A stretch of DNA of 64,000 nt. Origin: Hyphomicrobiales bacterium. Its GTDB lineage: Bacteria; Pseudomonadota; Alphaproteobacteria; Rhizobiales; Aestuariivirgaceae. The stretch covers positions 1 through 64,000 of the forward strand of contig JANYHB010000023.1 in the NCBI GenBank assembly GCA_025359265.1. Direction: 5' to 3'. Positions within the stretch are counted from its first letter, which is position 1, and each line of letters starts with the position of its first letter. The notes below the pieces were generated by a model that was not told where the DNA came from, made no database searches, and was given only the letters and a program-made list of their open reading frames with translations. Below are positions 11,573 through 28,219 of this stretch, piece by piece. The position numbers and the translations under genes are program-made.

Positions 11573-11765
11573 AAAATCAGGGCTTTCCGGTTGACGGGGT
11601 GGAGAATCCCCTCTAAGGCGGGCGCACTTTCTAATCCAACTATCAGGCTGGCCGAGAGGGCATTCTCTCTTGGCACAGCCTTGTGCCTTTCAAATGGCGC
11701 GTCAAGTTTGGTTTGAGTTTTTGATCGATAGCTGTGGAAGCTATTGATTTTATGAGGAGATTAAG
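11573..11765 (+). promoter_or_regulatory. Leader before rpsM with overlapping hairpins
   Basis: This is the largest gap inside the ribosomal cluster. It contains two hairpins that share bases: one from GCCGAGAG (11651-11658) to CTCTTGGC (11667-11674), and one from GGCACA (11672-11677) to TGTGCC (11682-11687) followed by TTT. They cannot form fully together. An alpha-operon leader is a known control point in E. coli (S4 binds a pseudoknot before rpsM); a similar role here is inference. No clear -35/-10 pair was recognised. Confidence 0.4.
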
Positions 11766-12134
11766 GTGGCCCGTATTGCAGGCGTAAACATTCCAACGGC
11801 AAAGCGCGTCGAAATCGCGCTGCGCTATATCAATGGCATTGGGCCAAACAACGCCAAGGTTATCTGCGGCGAAGTAAAGATTCCAGCCGCTAAACGTGTC
11901 AATGAGTTGACGGATGCCGAAATTTTGGCGATCCGAGAAATTATTGACCGTGATTATACGGTTGAGGGCGATCTTCGCCGTGAGATTGCCGTGAACATCA
12001 AGCGCTTGACGGATTTGGGCTGCTACCGGGGCCTTCGCCACCGCAAGGGCCTGCCGGTTCGCGGCCAGCGCACTCACACCAACGCGCGTACTCGTAAAGG
12101 CCCCGCAAAGGCCATTGCCGGCAAGAAGAAATAA
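11766..12134 (+). CDS. rpsM: 30S ribosomal protein S13
   Basis: S13 (122 aa) forms bridges between subunits in the 30S head. [19 protein letters not shown] at the start and [20 protein letters not shown] near the end are diagnostic. It uses a GTG start behind GAGGAGATTAAG. First gene of the alpha-operon part; unlike in gammaproteobacteria no rpmJ precedes it. Confidence 0.98.
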
Positions 12135-25170: not shown

Positions 25171-26544
25171 ATGCCAACCATTCTCATGCCCGCACTTTCA
25201 CCTACGATGGAAGAAGGCAAACTTTCCAAATGGCTTAAAAACGTCGGAGACCAGATTAAATCTGGCGACGTTTTGGCGGAGATTGAAACCGATAAGGCCA
25301 CGATGGAAGTGGAAGCCATTGACGAGGGGCCGTTGACTGAGATTTTAATTCCCGCGGGAACTGAGGGCGTGAAGGTCAATGCACCCATTGCCGTGATTGG
25401 CGCGCGGAGTGCTGGCGCAGCCTTCGAGGCCCCGCTGCGCGGAGCACCTCAGGATGAGGTTAAGTCTGGTTCATCGACAGTTTTGCCTCACCCTGAGGTG
25501 CCGCCACAGGCGACCTCGAAGGGCGAGGCTCTCTCCGAGCCTGAAATTCCCGCTGGCACGGAAATGGTTTCCATGACGGTGCGCGAAGCCATCCGCTCCG
25601 CCATGTCGGAAGAAATGCGCGCTGATAAAGATGTGTTCCTGATGGGCGAAGAAGTTGGCGAATATCAGGGCGCCTATAAAATCAGCCAAGGCATGTTGGA
25701 CGAGTTCGGGCCAGAACGGGTGCGCGATACGCCGATCACTGAACACGGCTTCACCGGCATTGCCGTGGGCGCGGCGTTTGCTGGCCTCAAGCCCATTGTG
25801 GAATTCATGACCTTCAATTTTGCCATGCAGGCCATTGATCAAATCATCAATTCAGCAGCCAAAACTTTATATATGTCAGGCGGCCAGATGGGCTGCCAGA
25901 TTGTGTTTCGTGGCCCCAATGGTGCGGCGGCGCGCGTTGGTGCACAGCACTCGCAGGATTATACGGCGTGGTATTCACAAATTCCGGGCCTTAAAGTGAT
26001 CGCCCCTTATTCTGCCGCCGATGCCAAGGGCTTGATGAAGGCTGCCATCCGCGACCCGAACCCGATCATCTTTCTGGAAAATGAGATCCTCTACGGCAAA
26101 ACATTTGAAGTGCCGAAACTTGATGATTGGGTGGTGCCCATCGGCAAAGCCCGGGTGGCGCGGGCTGGCCGACATGTGACTATCGTATCATTCAGCATCG
26201 GCATGACTTACGCTCTGGCTGCGGCTGAAAAACTGGCTGCCGAGGGCATTGAGGCTGAGGTGATTGACCTCCGCACAATCAGGCCCATGGATATTGAAAC
26301 TGTGGTGAAGAGCATTCAAAAAACCAATCGTTGCGTGTGTGTGGAAGAGGGTTATCCGCGCTTTTCGGTAACCTCCGAAATCGCTGCCGAAATCATGACG
26401 CATGCATTTGATTATCTTGACGCACCCGTGGCGCGCGTGGCTGGCAAAGATGTGCCCATGCCATATGCCACCAATTTGGAAAAACTGGCTCTGCCCAATG
26501 TGGATGATGTTGTGGCCGCCGCGAAAGGAGTTCTCTATGTCTAA
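25171..26544 (+). CDS. pdhB: Pyruvate dehydrogenase E1 beta subunit with N-terminal lipoyl domain
   Basis: 457 aa. Residues 1-78 are a lipoyl domain like that of E2 ([14 protein letters not shown], lipoyl-Lys in DKA). Residues ~85-130 are a linker built largely from two inverted copies of a palindromic DNA repeat (25421-25459 and 25486-25523), translated in frame. From ~135 the transketolase-like E1 beta core follows ([62 protein letters not shown]). A lipoylated E1 beta is a known alphaproteobacterial variant. Overlaps the next gene by 8 nt. Confidence 0.97.
25421..25459. repeat. Palindromic repeat in pdhB linker, copy 1
   Basis: CTTCGAGGC ... GCACCTCAGGATGAGG: the reverse complement begins CCTCATCCTGAGGTGC and ends GCCTCGAAGG, the style of a short palindromic repeat seen in many alphaproteobacterial genomes, normally between genes. 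Here it is translated in frame as part of a linker ([15 protein letters not shown]). The element has a core self-complementary part (CCTCA-TCC-TGAGG). Confidence 0.8.
25486..25523. repeat. Palindromic repeat in pdhB linker, copy 2 (inverted)
   Basis: CCTCACCCTGAGGTGCC ... GACCTCGAAGGG, the same element as copy 1 in the opposite orientation, 26 bp further on. Translated as [14 protein letters not shown]. With copy 1 it forms a larger inverted pair. Confidence 0.8.
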
Positions 26545-26899
26545 GAAGCCTGCCCATGACGATCATGGCCACGACCATCACCACCATGATCATTCCCATG
26601 AAACCCATCCCAATCAATTGCAGCCGCCGCATGAAGTGTTTCATGATGCAAGTGCTGGCGAAATTGCGCGGGCGTGGATCAGCGGTGGGCAGCTTTCACT
26701 GTCTCTGCATTCGATGGCTTTCGGCAAAGCTGATATTTGGGGCCATGTGCTGGCTGGCATGGCCCAACAAGTTGCCGCGTCCATGGAAGAAATGGGCCAT
26801 TCCACCAAGGGCCATAATCTGGAAGTGATCCGCAAAATCCTGGTCGAAGATTTGGCCAAGGCCGCTGCCGAAAGCTCGGTTCTCTCAAACAAAGGCTAA
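26537..26899 (+). CDS. DUF5076 protein with histidine-rich N-terminus
   Basis: 120 aa. Residues 1-27 hold 10 His within [20 protein letters not shown] and the following residues, a likely metal-binding tail. From ~residue 35 ([54 protein letters not shown]) it resembles DUF5076, a small domain of unknown function often found in the PDH operon of Hyphomicrobiales. The start overlaps the end of pdhB by 8 nt, with AAGGAG 6 nt before the ATG, so it is translated with pdhB. No catalytic motif seen; a link to PDH is inferred from position. Confidence 0.75.
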
Positions 26900-26905
26900 T
26901 CAATC

Positions 26906-28219
26906 ATGCCCGTCACCGTTCTCATGCCCGCTCTTTCGCCCACCATGGAAAAGGGCAAACTTGCCAAATGGCTGAAGCAGGAAGGCGACAAGGTGAAGTC
27001 TGGCGATGTTCTTGCCGAGATTGAAACCGACAAGGCCACCATGGAAATTGAGGCCATCGATGAAGGCACCCTTGGCAAGATCATTGTGGCCGAGGGCACG
27101 GATGATGTGTTGGTGAATGCGCCGATCGCCGTGATTTTGGCCGAGGGGGAAAAGTTGAGCGATGCAACGCTTGTTGCCGCCAACGCTTCGAGGCCGACTG
27201 CGGCGGCACCTCAGCAAGAGGGAAAATCCACTTCATCTCACCCTGAGGTGCCTGCGCCTTTGCAGGCCTCGACGGGTGCGCCACAAGGTGCATCGGGCGG
27301 CCGCGTATTCGCATCCCCGCTCGCGCGCCGCATGGCCCGCGACAAAGGCATCGACATTTCATCCGTACACGGATCAGGCCCGCATGGCCGCATTGTGGTG
27401 AAGGATGTGGAAGCCGCCAAGCTTGGTGCTGCGCCTGCGCCGGTGAGTGCTGGCGCGCCGCAAGCCATTGCCATTGCACCATCGGATGCATCAATTCTCA
27501 AAACCTTCGCAGATGGTTCCTATGCCCTTGTGCCGCATGAAACGATGCGCAAGGTGATCGCCCGCCGCCTCACGGAATCTAAGCAGCATGTGCCGCATTT
27601 CTATGTGACGGTGGATGTGGCGCTGGAAAACCTGTTGGGCCTGCGTGAGCGCCTCAATTTGCAAGCGCCGAAGGATAAAGACGGCAAGCCCGTGTGGAAA
27701 ATCTCGGTCAATGATTTCGTGATCAAGGCCATGGCCATGGCTCTGGTGAAAGTGCCGGAAGCCAATGTGGCCTGGACGGATTCAGCGATGGTGCATCACA
27801 AGCATGCCGACATTGGCGTGGCGGTTTCCATCCCCGGCGGATTGATCACACCGGTGGTGCGCAGCGCTGAGTTGAAAGGCCTCGCACAGATTTCTTCGGA
27901 GATGAAAGATTATGCCGCCCGCGCCAAGGCCCGCAAGCTGAAGCCTGAAGAATATACCGGCGGCTCATGCAGCGTTTCCAACATGGGCATGATGGGGGTG
28001 AAGAACTTCTCGGCCATCGTCAACCCGCCGCAATCATCCATTTTGGCGGTGGGGGCCGCTGAACGCCGCGCCGTGGTGAAGGGCAATGCTGTGGTGATTG
28101 AGCAGTTGATGAGTGTGACACTCTCCACTGATCATCGCTGCATTGATGGTGCCTTGGGTGCGCAATTCCTCGGCGCGATCAAGCTCTATCTCGAAGAACC
28201 TGCGTTGATGTTGGTGTGA
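26906..28219 (+). CDS. pdhC: Dihydrolipoamide acetyltransferase (E2) of pyruvate dehydrogenase
   Basis: 437 aa. Single lipoyl domain at residues 1-78 ([16 protein letters not shown]), a linker with two inverted palindromic repeats (27185-27221 and 27236-27276), a peripheral-subunit-binding domain (FASPLARRMARDKGID, HGSGPHGRIVVKDVE; ~130-170), an Ala/Pro hinge and the acetyltransferase core from ~205, ending with the catalytic DHRCIDGALGAQFL (His and Asp). It transfers the acetyl group to CoA and forms the PDH core. 6 nt after the DUF5076 gene. Confidence 0.98.
   Translation: MPVTVLMPALSPTMEKGKLAKWLKQEGDKVKSGDVLAEIETDKATMEIEAIDEGTLGKIIVAEGTDDVLVNAPIAVILAEGEKLSDATLVAANASRPTAAAPQQEGKSTSSHPEVPAPLQASTGAPQGASGGRVFASPLARRMARDKGIDISSVHGSGPHGRIVVKDVEAAKLGAAPAPVSAGAPQAIAIAPSDASILKTFADGSYALVPHETMRKVIARRLTESKQHVPHFYVTVDVALENLLGLRERLNLQAPKDKDGKPVWKISVNDFVIKAMAMALVKVPEANVAWTDSAMVHHKHADIGVAVSIPGGLITPVVRSAELKGLAQISSEMKDYAARAKARKLKPEEYTGGSCSVSNMGMMGVKNFSAIVNPPQSSILAVGAAERRAVVKGNAVVIEQLMSVTLSTDHRCIDGALGAQFLGAIKLYLEEPALMLV
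27185..27221. repeat. Palindromic repeat in pdhC linker, copy 3
   Basis: GCTTCGAGGCC ... GGCACCTCAGCAAGAGG, same orientation and reading frame as copy 1 in pdhB, more diverged at the right end. Translated ASRPTAAAPQQEGK. Confidence 0.75.
27236..27276. repeat. Palindromic repeat in pdhC linker, copy 4 (inverted)
   Basis: TCTCACCCTGAGGTGCC ... GGCCTCGACGGG, same orientation and frame as copy 2 in pdhB. Translated SHPEVPAPLQASTG. With copy 3 it repeats the inverted-pair layout of pdhB, at nearly the same distance. Confidence 0.75.

Follow-up and report, generated by a model that had tools for sequence, protein, structure and literature searches.

The RIME elements of rhizobia and the Bru-RS elements of Brucella are intergenic elements of about 100 bp, which contain two large palindromes. 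RIMEs are mentioned by name in a passage of PMC2573895. According to the passages of Di Nocera et al. 2013 (PMC3733652) that concern them, repetitive extragenic palindromic (REP) sequences with RAYT are dispersed palindromes, often in inverted pairs, which flank a small nuclease-like gene; the CGTC REPs are mainly alphaproteobacterial and apparently have no dedicated transposase. Rickettsia palindromic elements (RPE) and intragenic REPs are, in the same passages, palindromes that conserved proteins contain as in-frame insertions. Over half of them form dimers or groups, with 20-30 residues encoded, and their hosts are a scattered set of proteins, many of which act in DNA repair; an insertion in a flexible linker may, the authors propose, be neutral (PMC3733652). 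Here, we describe a palindromic element, named E1 by us, which is read as protein in two genes of the pyruvate dehydrogenase (PDH) complex, pdhB and pdhC; both are located in a window of 64,000 nucleotides (the whole stretch of DNA that was analysed; contig JANYHB010000023.1) from a Hyphomicrobiales bacterium.

E1 is dispersed in this genome (G000, 2.65 Mb over 73 contigs), stands in frame in the linkers of both PdhB and PdhC and is missing from near relatives, and other two-hairpin types substitute for it in other species of the genus. In our view it is likely, with a probability of roughly 0.7, that a small composite mobile element, made of two inverted hairpin units and a short spacer (about 90-107 bp), has been domesticated in both linkers.

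In size and in having two palindromes, the E1 pairs resemble RIME and Bru-RS as these are generally described; intragenic use of the latter was not met in the parts of the literature looked at. The comparison with the CGTC/GTAG REPs was made by description: these have a unit of 20-40 bp with a GTAG or CGTC tag, a stem of 8-9 bp and a loop of 4-5 nt (CGTC), and the E1 units measure 36-43 nt, have a loop longer than that of REPs and show no clear CGTC tag by eye. As with REP and RAYT, the elements adjoin nuclease genes more than other genes; unlike there, the candidate partners are GIY-YIG and DUF559 genes, and no Y1_Tnp partner was found in G000. The likeness to RPE lies in palindromes that are in frame in conserved proteins. 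What differs from RPE and intragenic REPs, as the cited passages describe them, is that here the linkers of two subunits in one complex are each host to several types, to which the old linker has given way. The words pyruvate, lipoyl and dehydrogenase have no match in the main text of PMC3733652, as distinct from its supplements. An intragenic palindrome is thus of a known kind; new relative to the open-access literature that was searched, where they were not found, are the recurrent use in PDH linkers and the GIY-YIG/DUF559 partners (subscription papers lay outside the search). In the same literature, no paper was found that joins DUF559 to palindromes or a transposon, or GIY-YIG to extragenic palindromes.

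Inverted E1 pairs in pdhB and pdhC

The E1 unit has the form CTTCGAGGC - loop - GCACCTCAGGATGAGG, and a pair consists of a unit, a spacer and the unit reversed. One pair spans positions 25422-25528 in pdhB and the other positions 27186-27278 in pdhC; all four units (Table 1) share one open frame per gene, and both pairs are situated between Pfam domains, i.e. between the lipoyl and Transket_pyr domains of PdhB and between the lipoyl and E3_binding domains of PdhC. The original prediction of four copies, arranged in frame as an inverted pair in each gene, was thus confirmed by coordinates, open reading frames (ORFs) and Pfam. The arms of the two pairs match each other over 41 nt. AlphaFold2 modelled PdhC from an alignment of 18 sequences with a mean predicted local distance difference test (pLDDT) score of 74.8; residues 89-132, with units C and D inside, fall below 50.

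Stem folding of the RNA, a check that had been proposed as well, was borne out for both pairs: the predicted energy is -62.8 kcal/mol for the whole pdhB pair (z -5.1, equalled by none of 200 shuffles) and -48.0 kcal/mol for the whole pdhC pair (z -2.8, equalled or bettered by 3 of 200). With respect to self-complementarity against codon shuffles, the pdhB pair reached z 4.7 and the weaker pdhC pair z 0.1; the latter was recognised via its likeness to the pdhB pair, to other copies and to pdhC of G015 (80% over 166 nt). Rfam, at gathering score, reported no described RNA family at E1; the sole match in the window was RF00140 elsewhere.

A pattern search with the core motif, allowing at most one mismatch, gave 12 matches in the own genome vs none for the reversed pattern. 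Sorted by eye according to ORF context, these are the four pdh units, seven matches at five intergenic loci and one chance match, the latter on C22 inside the start of a kinase-like gene. E1 is consequently present at seven loci of this genome, namely pdhB, pdhC and five that were judged to be intergenic: C38, C39 (decayed), C41, C44 (pair) and C61 (pair). The two pairs among these five are clean, inverted and built on the same plan. A survey of 41 genomes (own, genus and order) detected at least one match in 28 vs 13 for the reversed control, with a top count of 66, and at least three in 18, a level that the control, with never more than two, did not reach. These counts agree with a dispersed element. 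A loose scan of the window alone, with 7 matches vs 2.3 expected, was unconvincing by itself.

Element linkers in the genus

The sample comprised pdhB-pdhC stretches from 51 of 61 family genomes with a match, plus 80 named loci; 29 PdhB and 28 PdhC linkers of the genus were readable. Palindromic elements, which we assigned to types named E1 to E8 in this analysis, make up linkers of 7 of the 29 PdhB and 10 of the 28 PdhC proteins. Ordinary linkers of the genus are rich in Ala and Pro, and the near relatives G041, G042 and G019 have such plain linkers, without the insert; this comparison had been proposed as a check. Among the 16 of 17 element linkers to which the codon-shuffle test was applied, 14 reached a self-complementarity of z >=3, six of them of z 9-15. 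Element linkers also match further places in their own genomes, where the counts represent alignment pieces on both strands for a joined query and not copy numbers. By eye, types E2-E8 follow a common plan of outer arm, small hairpin, strong hairpin, spacer and mirror image, to which E1 is unlike.

Several linkers were rejected or left unclaimed. The PdhC linker of G041 (z 4.4) and the PdhB linkers of four Rhizobium loci (L063, L052, L049 and L075; z 3.1-3.9) have a self-complementary score, are Ala-rich and of low complexity, and were not counted as elements. PdhC of L092 (Rhodopseudomonas sp. B29) contains an element-like peptide such as PSPQPSPQRGEG, but z is 1.2; the same holds for PdhC of G063, G066 and G061, which belong to other genera of the family, with z <=0.6. 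PdhC of G015 also has a half element (QPSPLAGEGARRADEG) in its second linker, which follows the E3-binding domain (G015:C344:7984-8026; L137).

Linkers with an element have a median of 55 residues vs 44 for plain ones in PdhB (p 2e-4), and of 55 vs 47 in PdhC (p 5e-5). The proposed lengthening of the swinging-arm linker is correct in that the linkers are longer; as a description of the event it holds less well, because the coding capacity of an element (about 90-130 bp) is 30-43 residues and the median gain amounts to 8-11, so the element has mostly replaced the old linker. In all 17 element linkers, neither of the other two forward frames is as linker-like as the one in use; in PdhC of G015, one reverse frame scores slightly above it, yet contains a stop.

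SucB loci were obtained from 30 of 37 genomes of the genus, and none of the 29 SucB linkers that were readable contained an element (top z 2.1). Outside the genus the clear case is an E1 pair in PdhC of L025, a metagenome-assembled genome of R. palustris (z 4.4, E1 arms), which is read in the same frame as the other E1 pairs. Of 58 other element loci inspected, three have what looks like an in-frame insertion in a conserved gene, which is CobN-like in each; the remaining ORFs spanning element copies look like spurious frames or wrong starts. In the CobN-like gene, a second conserved host besides PDH, the palindrome is of the E3 type and in frame (L196, L201 and L207, i.e. G049:C13, G015:C92 and G003:C38), with L196 confirmed by Pfam.

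In the window, the gene order is pdhA-pdhB-pdhC (gene names assigned in this analysis), with a small ORF separating the latter two.

Table 1. Features of the pdh locus in the window, and element linkers in the genus.
Feature	Position in the window, or genome and protein	Strand	Remarks
pdhB, E1-beta with N-terminal lipoyl domain, hosts element pair 1	25171..26544	+	ORF; Pfam Biotin_lipoyl 3-76, Transket_pyr 135-309, Transketolase_C 325-447
E1 unit A (CTTCGAGGC...GCACCTCAGGATGAGG), PdhB residues ~84-97	25422..25459	+	41 nt, 93% identity to intergenic copy C38:19556
E1 unit B, inverse of A, 26 nt from A, PdhB residues ~106-120	25486..25528	-	A/B pair fold z -5.1
pdhC, E2 acetyltransferase, hosts element pair 2	26906..28219	+	ORF; Pfam lipoyl 4-77, E3_binding 134-169, 2-oxoacid_dh 207-436
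E1 unit C, PdhC residues ~94-106	27186..27221	+	27186-27226 83% complementary to 25481-25521
E1 unit D, inverse of C, 14 nt from C, PdhC residues ~111-125	27236..27278	-	CTCACCCTGAGGTGCC identical in B and D
E1 linkers	G000 PdhB + PdhC; G015 PdhC		
E2 linkers	G003 and G020, PdhB + PdhC		
E3 linkers	G015 PdhB; G049 PdhC		
Further variant linkers	G002 PdhB + PdhC; G021, G005 PdhB; G052, G047, G007, G012 PdhC		
His-rich small ORF between pdhB and pdhC	26540-26899		L016 has one too
Rfam Alpha_RBS (RF00140) match	11713-11798		Ordinary ribosomal-operon leader

Small nuclease genes beside the elements

Several elements adjoin DUF559 genes. A census of the genus gave 80 DUF559 matches in 32 of 37 genomes, of which 76 were examined, 74 with both flanks; for GIY-YIG, 84 of 122 matches were examined, 82 with both flanks, and the other 38 are mainly frames of UvrC length. 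Alike sequence, direct or inverted, is located on both sides of 60 of 74 DUF559 and 59 of 82 GIY-YIG genes. Among control ORFs such bracketing was seen in 0 of 82, and in 0 of 294 of a second set of small ORFs, which overlaps the first in source and contains orthologues and spurious frames. In the first 30 loci, the similarity of the flanks tracks the distance between the DUF559 proteins (Mantel p 0.001).

E1 is tied to one clade of GIY-YIG genes, whose tree support is 97/90 with 6 of 6 rows: all 7 clade members have the motif on at least one side (6 on both), vs 1 of 77 other GIY-YIG and 0 of 76 DUF559 genes. For a test outside the genus, one clade member served as the query against 199 genomes from the order. 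Seven other families account for the ten closest loci (E <=5e-25); nine of these loci have the strict E1 motif in at least one flank and the tenth has a variant, and the strict motif occurred in none of 13 remoter GIY-YIG homologues. Genomes with the clade contain 19-44 E1 matches (n=5) vs 0-32 for those without it (n=20; p=0.0018). In G000, no GIY-YIG gene of this clade was found; its E1 copies are therefore probably fossils.

A RAYT-type mobiliser was considered and rejected, as Y1_Tnp (PF01797) was detected in 7 of 37 genomes of the genus and not found in the other 30, nor in G000. Two side observations concern individual loci. Nine of the first 30 DUF559 loci, from nine species (L245, L246, L247, L249, L251, L252, L254, L256 and L263), occupy by eye one slot upstream of the same citramalate-synthase-like gene, and their palindrome variants differ. 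At G028:C12 (L443), clustered E1-like units adjoin a GIY-YIG gene; this is the genome with 66 E1 motif matches.

Explanations and their implications

The course of events that we favour can be outlined as follows. An element would have landed in a linker, where insertions in a stop-free frame rich in Pro, Ser, Glu and Gly may have been tolerated because length, solubility and flexibility are all that a linker needs. Trimming of the old Ala/Pro linker would then have held the net gain near 8-11 residues, and the element itself would now serve as the hinge of the swinging arm. Judged by gene position, E1 may have been moved or maintained by the adjoining small GIY-YIG nuclease and E2-E8 by DUF559 nucleases, a role that would be analogous to that of the RAYT transposases, which are thought to move REP sequences. 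Extending this course of events, alphaproteobacterial palindromes would form mobile families whose autonomous members encode one small nuclease (GIY-YIG for E1, DUF559 for E2-E8) and no transposase; in this genus, non-autonomous copies would repeatedly become the PDH hinge, with families replacing one another in place, and the linker would evolve via the turnover of selfish DNA. To this extension, which is tentative, we assign somewhat less than an even chance.

The following points weigh against domestication or against its extension to the nucleases. Beyond the genus, elements are seldom seen in PDH linkers, with one clear case among 141 linkers from 75 remoter named loci. Three linkers were called by likeness and not by the shuffle test, namely PdhC of G000 (z 0.1), of G002 (z 2.0) and of G015 (outside the test). 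The residue set of the frame test was chosen by ourselves, with a few native codons included. The nuclease partnership is positional. The bracketing cut-off of 20 was fixed after the first 30 loci had been seen, and the clade pattern was defined after its E1-flanked members had been seen, for which reason the tree and the search outside the genus are the cleaner tests; in the latter, the motif is on both flanks in only 5 of the 10 closest loci. Flank self-complementarity of at least 20 was found for 49 of 74 DUF559 and 33 of 82 GIY-YIG genes (2 of 82 controls), i.e. alike flanks are not always hairpins. Only in some loci are DUF559 flanks of the same type as the PDH linkers, and only 13 of 26 DUF559 genes outside the genus are bracketed. 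In G015, G021 and G024, 16-32 E1 matches exist and no partner gene was found; these assemblies consist of 330-470 contigs.

The strongest competitor to the nuclease part is that these genes are passengers, or repair or defence genes in repeat-rich intergenic spots, and not movers. This is quite conceivable, given that the association is one of position and that a single chromosomal slot holds 9 of the first 30 DUF559 loci by eye, as would be expected of an old resident gene. On the other hand, no control ORF of either set was bracketed, E1 follows one GIY-YIG clade in the genus and in seven other families, and flanks diverge along with the DUF559 proteins; we consider passengers somewhat less probable than not.

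A second alternative concerns the origin of the matching pairs: one insertion in pdhB or pdhC might have reached the other gene as a copy, with the homologous lipoyl region as the route for gene conversion or duplication. The lipoyl regions of the two genes in the window are indeed 80% alike across 152 nt, and the mean identity of B and C lipoyl DNA is 0.781 within vs 0.754 between genomes, so that some exchange is possible, which also counts against independent insertions. Copying would likewise explain why the same type is frequent in both genes. Of 25 genomes with both linkers read, 5 contain an element in both, 1 in PdhB only, 4 in PdhC only and 15 in neither (one-sided hypergeometric p ~0.012, computed by hand with kinship ignored), and 4 of the 5 have matching types. 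The exception, G015, with E1 in PdhC and E3 in PdhB, is at odds with copying, as is the 5' arm of the pdhB unit, which is read in a different frame from that of the pdhC unit. Moreover, the lipoyl DNA of B and C falls into two clean groups (54 rows, support 100/99, one change); a split with full support means that wholesale conversion of the lipoyl part is not seen, and lipoyl-domain conversion as the source of the matching elements is unsupported by the tree, despite the slightly higher identity within genomes. Copying between the genes is thus unlikely. For the co-occurrence of one type, both insertion during the activity of one family and a conversion tract confined to the linker are possible.

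Recurrent insertion is further suggested by the core tree of PdhB and PdhC, on which the element label needs at least 4 changes for B, at least 6 for C, and 8 if the C types are distinguished; rows with unread linkers, and for B also G062 and G070, are omitted from these counts. The sisters G049 and G003/G020 (support 100/100; G049 with 46% of columns) have different types in the same place, where one element seemingly replaced another.

It is improbable that the hairpin is kept for a role of the RNA or DNA in the pdh message (translation, decay or subunit ratio) with the peptide as a by-product. Both pairs fold well, as such a role would demand; the pdhC pair, however, is decayed with frame and length retained, 15 of the 25 genomes mentioned have no element at all, and types of unlike sequence have mainly frame and length in common. 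Chance, i.e. GC-rich linker codons that merely look palindromic, as the original prediction had allowed, can be dismissed: the window scan is only mildly above expectation and Ala-rich linkers can score (the five uncounted cases above), but z reaches 15 against codon shuffles, the linkers match dispersed copies in their genomes and 0 of 29 SucB linkers contain an element.

With SucB as a clean negative in the same genus, it can be asked what sets PDH apart from 2-oxoglutarate dehydrogenase, and whether selection acts on the frame. For alphaproteobacterial palindromes, whose main kind reportedly, in the passages cited above, has no dedicated transposase, the association points to the small nucleases as a concrete and testable candidate. 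Earlier reports concern scattered proteins; in the present case, unlike elements have repeatedly hit a single defined pair of linkers in a central complex, and the hinges of this enzyme seem to have been renewed from mobile DNA time after time.

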